Of a stretch of DNA of 64,000 bases, positions 48,906 to 51,402 are shown one piece after another; position 1 is the stretch's first letter; each line of letters opens with the position of its first letter. Where the stretch lies: contig JAOARN010000047.1 of the NCBI GenBank assembly GCA_025210485.1, forward strand, positions 1 through 64,000, written 5' to 3'. The position numbers and the translations under genes were made by a program. The notes beneath the pieces are model-generated. The model saw only the letters and a program-made list of their open reading frames with translations, was not told the origin of the DNA and did no database searches. Origin of the DNA: Marinifilaceae bacterium (GTDB lineage Bacteria; Bacteroidota; Bacteroidia; Bacteroidales; Marinifilaceae).

Positions 48906-49301
48906 TTAAAAATGAACTCCTTTTGTGTAATACCACTGACCATCCTCATTTATAAAATCTGACAATTCATGAATTCTTTCTAATTGACCATCTAAAATAT
49001 AGCTTGCTATAAATTCTACTTTCCCACTTGTAGAATACTTATCTCCTTTTTTTGTTTTTTTTATCTCTAATCCTTGCCAATCTGCTTTCTTAAGATAATT
49101 AACGGATTCTAGAACATCCATTATATTGCGACTTGAATGGTGATGGGTTTTTATTAGATAATCAGCATTGGATAATGTAAATGCGGTATATCGTGATCGC
49201 ATTAGTTGTTCGGCTGTTGCTGCTGGTCTTTCTCCTTTTATTATTGATATACAACATGATGATGCTTCTAAATTGGAACCACATGGGCATTTTTCTTTCA
49301 T
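48906..49301 (-). CDS. YchJ-family (UPF0225) SEC-C-motif protein
   Basis: 131 residues. The N-terminal SEC-C zinc motif CPCGSNLEASSCC is followed by the UPF0225/YchJ body (TAEQLMRSRYTAFTLSNADYL, TADW-like KKADWQGLEI, VEFIASYILDG, GQWYYTKG). The function of YchJ proteins is not established. A zinc-binding adaptor role is only suggested by the SEC-C motif. It stands alone. A longer overlapping frame on the same strand (49162-49449) is in a different phase and not real. Confidence 0.9.
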   Translation of the reverse strand: MKEKCPCGSNLEASSCCISIIKGERPAATAEQLMRSRYTAFTLSNADYLIKTHHHSSRNIMDVLESVNYLKKADWQGLEIKKTKKGDKYSTSGKVEFIASYILDGQLERIHELSDFINEDGQWYYTKGVHF

Positions 49302-49758
49302 TTTTTAATTTTATAAAATTAATAGAATGAGCTTCATTCCTAGTGAGCATTGTCACATAGTTGAGATAGCTACTTTTACCAATGCAAATAAATGTATTTT
49401 TATGGAAAAACAAGAAAGCTCGATGGGTTTGATTTGTATTCTTAGCCACACACAGTGAACCCCGATGGGGTTCATTTGTATTTTTAGCTTGTATTTTCGA
49501 TCCATATACAGGAAACCCCGATGGGGTTTATATTATTATTGTTTCTTAAAATATAAACATTAATCTATTTTACTTATTCATAATCGTTTCGCACCTACGG
49601 TGCTAGAGACAGGGAAGCCCGATGGGCTTGATATGTATTCTTAGCTTTTTTTTATATACAGGAAACCCCGATGGGGTTCATTTGTATTCTTAGCTTATCT
49701 TTTGTGCCATAGACGGAAAGCCCGATGGGCTTTATATTATTGCTATGCGAATTTTTGT
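49302..49758. repeat. Left arm of the RAYT hairpin-repeat array (6 units)
   Basis: Six direct repeats, all in the same orientation, with hairpin cores near 49415-49430, 49458-49472, 49514-49528, 49615-49629, 49664-49678 and 49718-49732. The core alternates between AAGCCCGATGGGCTT and AACCCCGATGGGGTT, so both stem sides change together. Each is usually preceded by ATACAGG and followed by TTGTATTCTTAGC. A separate small palindrome GCACCTACGGTGC lies at about 49591. No gene in this stretch. Confidence 0.85.
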
Positions 49759-50220
49759 TTATTCGATCCAGTCAAATAAATATCTTTCTTCGTATTCTAC
49801 CTGAAATTTGTGTAATATTAAAAGATATTCATCTTTAAATGTGCGTTTTCTATGATGTTCTTCTTGATTTAATATATAATTAACTACATTCTTGATGTGG
49901 CTCTGTGAATACGAAAATGCTCCAAATCCTCCTTGCCATCGAAATAAGCTTTTAATCCATTTTTTATCATTTATATATTTGGAGGAAGCTATTTTTATAT
50001 CATGTACTAAATCTGATATTGAAATATTGGGTTTCATTCCTACAAATAAATGAATATGGTCTGGCATTGCAAATATGGCTAGTAATTTTTGTCCTCTATT
50101 GCTTACAATACCTGTTATAAATTTATGTAATTCTTCTCTATGTTCTCTAGGGATTAAACTTTCTCTATATTTTACTGTAAATACAATTTGAATATGTATT
50201 TGAGAATATGTATTTGCCAT
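49759..50220 (-). CDS. IS200/IS605-type Y1 transposase (REP-associated, RAYT-like)
   Basis: 153 residues, full length for IS200-type TnpA. The HUH metal motif is in MPDHIHLFVGM, the N-terminal strand is IHIQIVFTVKYRESLI, and the catalytic Tyr region is WQGGFGAFSYSQSHIKNVV. These enzymes cut and rejoin single-stranded DNA at hairpins. The gene stands inside a 13-copy array of imperfect palindromes, the arrangement seen for REP-associated tyrosine transposases. It appears intact, starting at ATG 50220. No TnpB gene accompanies it. Confidence 0.92.
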   Translation of the reverse strand: MANTYSQIHIQIVFTVKYRESLIPREHREELHKFITGIVSNRGQKLLAIFAMPDHIHLFVGMKPNISISDLVHDIKIASSKYINDKKWIKSLFRWQGGFGAFSYSQSHIKNVVNYILNQEEHHRKRTFKDEYLLILHKFQVEYEERYLFDWIE

Positions 50221-50580
50221 AATATTATTTTTTTTGTTTATGTACAGGAAAGCCCGAGGGGCTTGATTTGTGTTCTTATTTTTTCTTTTTATATACAGGA
50301 AAGCCCCATGGGCTTGATCTGTGTTCTTATTTTTTCTTTTTATATACAGGAAAGCCCCATGGGCTTGATCTGTGTTCTTATTTTTTCTTCTTATATACAG
50401 GAAAGCCCGATGGGCTTGATTTGTATTCTTATTTTTTCTTATTATATACAGGGAAGCCCGATGGGCTTGATTTGTATACTTGCATTATATACAGGGAAGC
50501 ACGATGGGCTTGATTAGCATTTCTACCCTGTTTTTTCCTGCCATATACAGGATAGCCCGAGGGGCTTGATTTGTATTTAT
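50221..50580. repeat. Right arm of the RAYT hairpin-repeat array (7 units)
   Basis: Seven direct units with cores starting near 50250, 50301, 50352, 50403, 50454, 50497 and 50553. The first five are spaced exactly 51 bp apart and the last two intervals are 43 and 56 bp. The unit is ATACAGGAAAGCCCGATGGG, then CTTGATTTGTATTCTTATTT and a T-rich tail. Variants (GCCCGAGGGGC, GCCCCATGGGC) keep the stem. ORFs read through the repeats only because 51 is a multiple of three. Confidence 0.88.
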
Positions 50581-50829: not shown

Positions 50830-51402
50830 TTGAACGCACAAATAAGTATAAATAAAACATCTCTAAGCCAAAAAGAATATCAAAATCTATTTAATGAACA
50901 GTACCCACCTCTATGTTTTTTTGCTAATAAGTTTATTAACGATATGTCCGTAAGTAAGGATATAGTTCAGGACATATTTGTAAAAATATGGGAAGGTAAA
51001 ATAAACATAAATAAAACTAAATCTGTAAAATCATTTTTATACACTATAGTCAAAAATGAATGTGTCGACTATATAAAATTCAAGATCAAAGAGAAAGATA
51101 GTCTAAAATATATTGCAGAGTTGACCAATGATCTATCTTTCGATAAAGCTATGATTGAAGAAGAAATACATTTTCAAATTCATTTAGCAATTAAAAAACT
51201 CTCCATTAAATCTCAAGAGATAATTATATTAACACTGGGGGGAATGACTAATCCTGAAATTGCTGAAGAACTCGAAATTTCTATTAACACGGTGAAGACG
51301 ATAAAGAAAAGAGCCTATAAAAACTTGAGAGAAGAAATAAGAACAAAAAATATTGATACAAATAAAGCAAATTATATTCTTATGCTTTTGTTTGGAGAAT
51401 AG
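50830..51402 (+). CDS. ECF-type RNA polymerase sigma factor
   Basis: 190 residues. Sigma region 2 lies at about 17-85 (YQNLFNEQYPPLCFFANKFI, SKDIVQDIFVKIWE, SFLYTIVKNECVDYIK). Region 4 is at about 125-185 (AIKKLSIKSQEIIILTLGGM, TNPEIAEELEISINTVKTIK). This is the ECF layout of the FecI/SusR-linked group in Bacteroidota. The start is taken as TTG 50830. The frame is open further upstream without an ATG, and the first internal ATG (residue 39) would cut region 2. No anti-sigma FecR gene is adjacent, and the next gene is convergent. The FecR at 63298 belongs to a different locus. Confidence 0.87.
   Translation: MNAQISINKTSLSQKEYQNLFNEQYPPLCFFANKFINDMSVSKDIVQDIFVKIWEGKININKTKSVKSFLYTIVKNECVDYIKFKIKEKDSLKYIAELTNDLSFDKAMIEEEIHFQIHLAIKKLSIKSQEIIILTLGGMTNPEIAEELEISINTVKTIKKRAYKNLREEIRTKNIDTNKANYILMLLFGE

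Follow-up and report, generated by a model that had tools for sequence, protein, structure and literature searches.

A short hairpin is repeated many times in one direction around a single transposase gene of a Marinifilaceae genome, and the locus raises the questions of what the hairpins are to the enzyme and how they came to be arrayed. The gene, tnpA, lies in the window (the whole stretch of 64,000 nucleotides that was analysed) at positions 49759–50220 on the minus strand. It is intergenic, placed between a gene for a YchJ-like protein (48906–49301, minus strand) and one for an ECF sigma factor (50830–51402, plus strand). The sigma factor is of the Bacteroidetes type (TIGR02985); its gene is followed by a convergent 504-aa ORF, phosphoesterase-like, with no same-strand partner such as an anti-sigma gene. 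A promoter scan of the locus gave no excess over chance.

Repeat finding in the window gives 13 same-orientation copies of the hairpin, six to the left of tnpA and seven to the right, and the coordinates and counts of the initial annotation are correct. A further hairpin, absent from that count, is located in the left block at 49591–49603. It reads GCACC-TAC-GGTGC, has the canonical loop of the family, is matched by the covariance model at 49574–49605 with 26.2 bits, and has a tail score of 6.1 on the tnpA strand. With this 14th hairpin there are seven on each side of tnpA, all 14 in the same orientation. The features are listed below.

49404–49748, no strand assigned: array on the left, which seems to be a three-hairpin block present twice (offsets, repeat D3)
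49417–49429, minus strand: hairpin unit 1, degenerate, AGCTC/GGGTT (repeat finding, tail profile)
49458–49472, minus strand: hairpin unit 2, AACCCC/GGGGTT (repeat finding, covariance model, tail profile)
49514–49528, minus strand: hairpin unit 3, AACCCC/GGGGTT (repeat finding, covariance model, tail profile)
49591–49603, minus strand: 14th hairpin, with the canonical GNA loop and the tail; reads GCACC-GTA-GGTGC along the tnpA strand
49615–49629, minus strand: hairpin unit 4, AAGCCC/GGGCTT (repeat finding, tail profile)
49664–49678, minus strand: hairpin unit 5, AACCCC/GGGGTT (covariance-model match of 32.8 bits, tail profile)
49718–49732, minus strand: hairpin unit 6, AAGCCC/GGGCTT, the closest to tnpA on its downstream side, with a weak tail
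49759–50220, minus strand: tnpA, 153-aa Y1 (HUH) transposase, subclass 1.2 type (Pfam, NCBIfam, AlphaFold2)
50225–50577, no strand assigned: tandem array on the right with a 51-bp period, about 7 copies (Tandem Repeats Finder: 4.9 copies at 94% match)
50250–50264, minus strand: hairpin unit 7, the closest to tnpA on its upstream side; starts the run of five at exactly 51 bp
50301–50315, minus strand: hairpin unit 8 (repeat finding, covariance model, Tandem Repeats Finder)
50352–50366, minus strand: hairpin unit 9 (same three methods as unit 8)
50403–50417, minus strand: hairpin unit 10 (same three methods)
50454–50468, minus strand: hairpin unit 11 (same three methods)
50497–50511, minus strand: hairpin unit 12, one stem mismatch (repeat finding, tail profile)
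50553–50567, minus strand: hairpin unit 13 (repeat finding, covariance model, tail profile)

The spacings of the numbered units are 42, 56, 101, 49 and 54 bp on the left, and 51, 51, 51, 51, 43 and 56 bp on the right. Five right-hand units therefore make four exact 51-bp steps, as had been claimed, and Tandem Repeats Finder returns the same period. On the left the two copies of the block (units 1–3 and 4–6) lie about 204 bp apart, with offsets of 199, 206 and 204 bp for units 1 and 4, 2 and 5, and 3 and 6 respectively. A degenerate 24-mer of the array unit (up to three mismatches) has 12 matches in the window, where 0.00 are expected from 100 shuffles.

Read on the tnpA strand, the window hairpins comprise a stem of 5–6 bp closed by a triloop (ATC-type), followed by the 3′ tail CCTGTATATAA. 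An outer stem ATACA/TGTAT, 83% paired, surrounds the hairpin at this locus. The idea drawn from it, that there is a functional tail on both sides of the hairpin, was rejected, the plus strand scoring −7 to −12 at all 14. With a tail profile built without the window locus, 14 of 14 hairpins score higher on the tnpA strand and 12 of 14 are positive there. Paired changes in the stems had also been pointed out by the initial annotation. The pairing itself is borne out, with 97% of cells paired and a single-unit covariation score equalled in 1 of 500 shuffles, but the compensatory changes come down essentially to one inner pair (G-C to C-G, in three distinct units) and one outer pair. Covariation inside the window is real but thin.

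Class and fold of the transposase

TnpA matches Pfam Y1_Tnp (1e-26) and the NCBIfam IS200 model NF033573 (73.7 bits, over the cut-off of 55). It carries the motifs DHIH, W95-Q96 and YILNQEEHH, the last of which fits neither the subclass 1.1 motif Y[IV]ENQ nor the class 2 motif Y---NP. Y---Q--HH is found at 109 of 109 loci, the window locus included, and Y115, Q119, H122 and H123 are invariant among 34 aligned sequences. The AlphaFold2 model (pLDDT 91.7) has its best fold matches in the ISDra2 and IS608 TnpA complexes with end-hairpin DNA, while the E. coli RAYT (4er8) is a weaker match by E-value.

By these defining motifs TnpA is a member of subclass 1.2 of the TnpA-Y1 superfamily; it is not a RAYT. 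The suggestion of a RAYT-like enzyme with REP-like hairpins holds for a Y1 enzyme and for hairpins whose structure is conserved and that are plausibly its substrates, but not for the RAYT assignment, the RAYT model NF047646 reaching 32.9 bits against a cut-off of 80 and Y---NP being absent. Subclass 1.2 is a little-studied transposase type, described in 2018 by Quentin et al. as near the IS200/IS605 TnpA and generally without typical terminal structures (PMC6006769). Its reference features are DH[IV]H, WQ, a length of about 148 aa and low copy number (PMC6006769). The subclass has also been reported from Cyanobacteria. Typical IS200 ends are indeed absent, but a short tailed hairpin of another kind, which has no place in the published description, is enriched about 27-fold near tnpA. 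No earlier description of a hairpin partner for this subclass was found in the open-licence literature, in which PMC6006769 was the sole relevant paper found.

The gene is under strong purifying selection. Over all computable pairs of close relatives dN/dS is 0.02–0.09, and it is 0.03–0.05 at orthologous loci with syntenic flanks in Dyadobacter (L055/L062) and Brumimicrobium (L079/L082, L080/L099 and L098/L102). The Dyadobacter orthologues differ in their units, with 12 in one versus 3 plus 4 opposite in the other.

Hairpin, tail and spacing in the family

Loci of relatives were taken from GTDB genomes and 393 order-level genomes. At 109 loci short hairpins were collected, with their orientation set by their flanks. 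The family consensus is A-[RYYCC]-loop-[GGRRY]-GAcATGwTTrTAGAAA, that is, a 5-bp stem with the conserved 3′ tail GAcATGwTTrTAG. The loop reads RNA in 414 of 598 hairpins, GNA in 333 and TNC in 8. The density of tailed hairpins is 2.72/kb up to 600 bp from tnpA and 0.10/kb at 2.2–2.8 kb, with 0 in shuffled flanks. The rows of the covariance model were picked for perfect stems, so its pair counts are no independent proof of structure; such proof comes from this contrast in density between near and far.

Between neighbouring hairpins of the same orientation the distance is 45–58 bp in 219 of 294 cases, and its distribution peaks at 51 and 52 bp. Upstream of tnpA the nearest hairpin is directed at the gene in 72 of 81 loci; downstream this holds for 82 of 94. 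The usual plan of the family is a pair, tnpA and a mirrored pair. In about 110 relatives the pairs are formed by hairpins of the same orientation 49–53 bp apart, often grown into phased arrays. The window departs from the mirrored plan, all 14 of its hairpins pointing one way. The dense phased array was considered unusual by the initial annotation, which is overstated. Phased runs of at least five units occur at 12 of 109 loci, the longest having 11 units at 51 bp (L119) and 10 (L055), and the literature already describes clusters next to RAYT genes (PMC3116915, PMC8266576). At one locus (L104) a truncated 3′ copy of tnpA and its downstream hairpins are duplicated upstream of the intact gene, within a hairpin array.

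Hairpin and enzyme go together. Searched with the covariance model among the 393 genomes, the hairpin is present in 87 of 108 with a close tnpA versus 23 of 158 without; for close tnpA against all other genomes the Fisher odds ratio is 13 (p = 4e-25, not corrected for phylogeny). Mapped on the TnpA tree the loop type requires 8 changes, compared with a shuffled mean of 28.7. No hairpin match was found at seven control tnpA loci, which are plasmid matches of at most 34% identity and non-Y---Q--HH where the motif was read. A Bernardetia plasmid copy of tnpA that is of subclass 1.2 (YVLNQPEHH) does have a hairpin match.

Counting the repeat genome-wide and in relatives, as had been suggested, gave a split answer to the initial annotation's refuting condition: the array-type repeat is absent elsewhere in the window genome, but the number of units varies between orthologous loci of relatives, and other genomes have the hairpin dispersed. 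The window genome (4.52 Mb, 94% complete, 156 contigs) has no detected second copy of tnpA. All 12 of the 12 places matching the array unit pattern with up to three mismatches are inside the array, although draft gaps could hide copies; the array-type repeat is therefore local and not dispersed. The sole strong family-type hairpin outside the array found with the covariance model is ATCCC-GAA-GGGAT, with a full tail and a different stem type. It is located at L124:2744–2775 (C44:13243–13274), about 230 bases before the end of contig C44. At the end of that contig (L124:2880–3002), words that contain CCATGG are densely repeated in inverted orientation, ccatggttcctccatcg... / ...ccatggaggaacc; they may be a palindrome at which the assembly broke, or belong to a different family of repeats. 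A comparison with four genomes of the family could show no empty site, as the neighbouring gene, YchJ, was not found in them.

Elsewhere the hairpins are found free of the gene, and only 2 of 49 dispersed places that were fetched hold tnpA. In one genome (G138) the end hairpins occur at many sites without tnpA as four-hairpin MITEs, in the hairpin order of the tnpA copy, and some of these elements retain an N-terminal remnant of the gene. Several of them (L127, L128, L135 and L138–L152) are enclosed by CCCGATAACTATCCATAGCCGTCAGG, an outer inverted repeat of 26 bp that may be part of the element or a separate repeat of the host. It was rejected as a general end, since the doublets of a second genome (G299) lack it and stop at the foot of the hairpin and at the tail. 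The latter are dispersed direct doublets of about 80 bp in total, with hairpins 53–55 bp apart. Identity is about 100% from the foot of the first hairpin and drops about 13 nt past the second stem. No Y1 transposase was detected in G299, G048, G316, G031 or G123, though these contain many tailed hairpins, and their orphan doublets seem to have outlived the enzyme. Back-to-back inverted hairpin pairs are seen in G287 and G090. A second architecture of tnpA-free element is present in G024 (L129, L155–L173), as dozens of near-identical dispersed repeats longer than 100 bp. Each has one GCCCC-GTA-GGGGC hairpin and tail, followed by the imperfect palindromic GCGATGCACGC ... TTGCATCGC.

Origin of the array

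The locus is probably a single-copy subclass 1.2 tnpA that lies within an array of its cognate ends, the hairpins being single-stranded DNA recognition sites. On the best reading the array arose when the end sequences belonging to the transposase were amplified in situ, and its 51-bp period reflects the distance within one functional pair of hairpins. In its geometry the dispersed doublet resembles the left and right ends of IS200/IS605 elements, and a two-hairpin end model is proposed on that basis, with the IS200/IS605 end mechanism as the comparison (PMC6006769, PMC8266576). TnpA, most likely an IS200/IS605-like HUH-tyrosine enzyme, would bind two hairpins about 51 nt apart on the same strand, and would cut in two places, close to the first hairpin's foot and past the second one's tail. 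The segment between the cuts would be moved in single-stranded form. If it reinserts next to a further hairpin, or if slippage and recombination act on the folded strand, the array would gain one 51-bp period at a time. Any two neighbouring hairpins about 51 nt apart could serve as left and right ends on one strand. An array that is a chain of overlapping doublets explains both the direct orientation and the constant period. The product stayed local in the window genome; in relatives such units have spread without the gene.

Several observations count against this explanation. The window's own repeat type is undispersed in its genome, all 14 hairpins point one way against the mirrored flanks of the family, and some genomes have hairpins with no detected Y1 transposase. 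Growth of the array may be due to TnpA or to slippage of the folded strand; we infer that TnpA drives it, yet slippage by itself could also produce near-identical units of 51 bp. It is possible, if rather doubtful, that the hairpins are ancestral ends and the dense array a passive VNTR, expanded by slippage or unequal recombination with no part played by TnpA. In favour of passive growth, the right-hand units hardly differ from one another across all 51 bp, linkers included, the left side resembles a duplication of a ~204-bp block, and each side keeps its own linker type. The ~51-bp spacing, however, recurs in unrelated sequences of the family and in dispersed doublets, so that the period is no accident of a single duplication, and arrays are present at many tnpA loci and rare 2 kb away.

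Could TnpA instead be a domesticated house-keeping protein, with the array as a fixed, non-mobile chromosomal landmark? The single copy, the low dN/dS and the syntenic flanks among relatives are in keeping with this, as is the published low copy number of the subclass (PMC6006769). It is nevertheless unlikely, given the tnpA-free derivatives scattered in several genomes and the varying unit numbers; near-identical TnpAs also occur in genomes assigned to different phyla, possibly a binning effect.

That the hairpins act as RNA, terminating or attenuating transcription so as to insulate tnpA or regulate its mRNA, is improbable. There are 11 terminator-like sites on the plus strand where 0.6 are expected, and the probable 5′ leader of tnpA contains several of the hairpins. 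This reading was rejected as terminators scored on the plus strand only, so that all the called sites are antisense to tnpA. Moreover the tail has no continuous run of T, the relatives' tail TGATTATAG is no terminator, an Rfam search of the locus gave no match, and hairpins are also dispersed away from tnpA. A true RAYT/REP system, with a class 2 TnpAREP and its REPs, is most improbable: a Y1 enzyme does lie between short palindromes with a conserved tetranucleotide-like tail, and REPtrons likewise cluster beside the gene (PMC8266576, PMC3116915), but Y---Q--HH replaces Y---NP, the RAYT model is under its cut-off, the conserved tail is 3′ of the hairpin with no GTAG 5′ of it, and the window genome has no dispersed copies.

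Returning to amplification of cognate ends as the preferred explanation, we advance a broader proposal more tentatively, as plausible but short of probable. Subclass 1.2 TnpAs may be the basis of an unrecognised REP-like system of the Bacteroidota, in which the mobile unit would be a direct doublet of GNA-loop hairpins at ~51 nt, and in-situ amplification by the enzyme of its own ends would give rise to hypervariable phased arrays at the gene and to free doublets elsewhere, some of which outlive the gene. The arrays look hypervariable, and would be useful for strain typing in Bacteroidota.

Relation to known systems

The window enzyme shares with subclass 1.2 (PMC6006769) the motifs Y---Q--HH and WQ, a length of about 150 aa, low copy number and its occurrence in Bacteroidota. 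That paper reports no terminal structures, whereas here tailed hairpin pairs or arrays are found at nearly every locus. What seems to be new is the DNA partner of the subclass, namely the hairpin, its tail, the 51-bp direct doublet and the in-situ arrays. This branch of single-strand transposases had been set aside as lacking any DNA partner; it now appears to have one, in which hairpin, tail and spacing form a clear consensus.

The HUH-Y1 fold and catalytic residues are those of IS200/IS605 elements (IS608, ISDra2). Also similar is the dispersed doublet bounded by two same-strand hairpins, with its right edge about 13 nt 3′ of the second. Unlike those elements, the locus has no tnpB, a single copy and shorter hairpins with GNA loops; where they have one subterminal hairpin per end there are seven on each side here, and most relatives carry mirrored hairpin pairs around tnpA. 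The PATEs of Haloquadratum (palindrome-associated transposable elements) are likewise non-autonomous, palindrome-bounded derivatives of IS200/IS605 type, but they are archaeal and tied to another element lineage. We know of no phased arrays of PATEs at a tnpA gene.

The system works like a hybrid of IS200 and REP. As in RAYT/REP and REPIN systems (PMC8266576, PMC3116915), a single-copy Y1 gene lies beside a cluster of its cognate palindrome, non-autonomous copies are dispersed in some genomes, and the type of hairpin tracks the lineage of the enzyme. In contrast to RAYT/REP, the enzyme is of class 1, the tail is 3′ of the hairpin and there is no 5′ GTAG. REPINs are inverted doublets, while the basic doublet here is direct at about 51 bp and the window hairpins are all direct. 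The subclass 1.2 system would thus be a counterpart of RAYT/REP with a class 1 enzyme and direct rather than inverted doublets, and as such it bears on the origin of REPs from the ends of insertion sequences.
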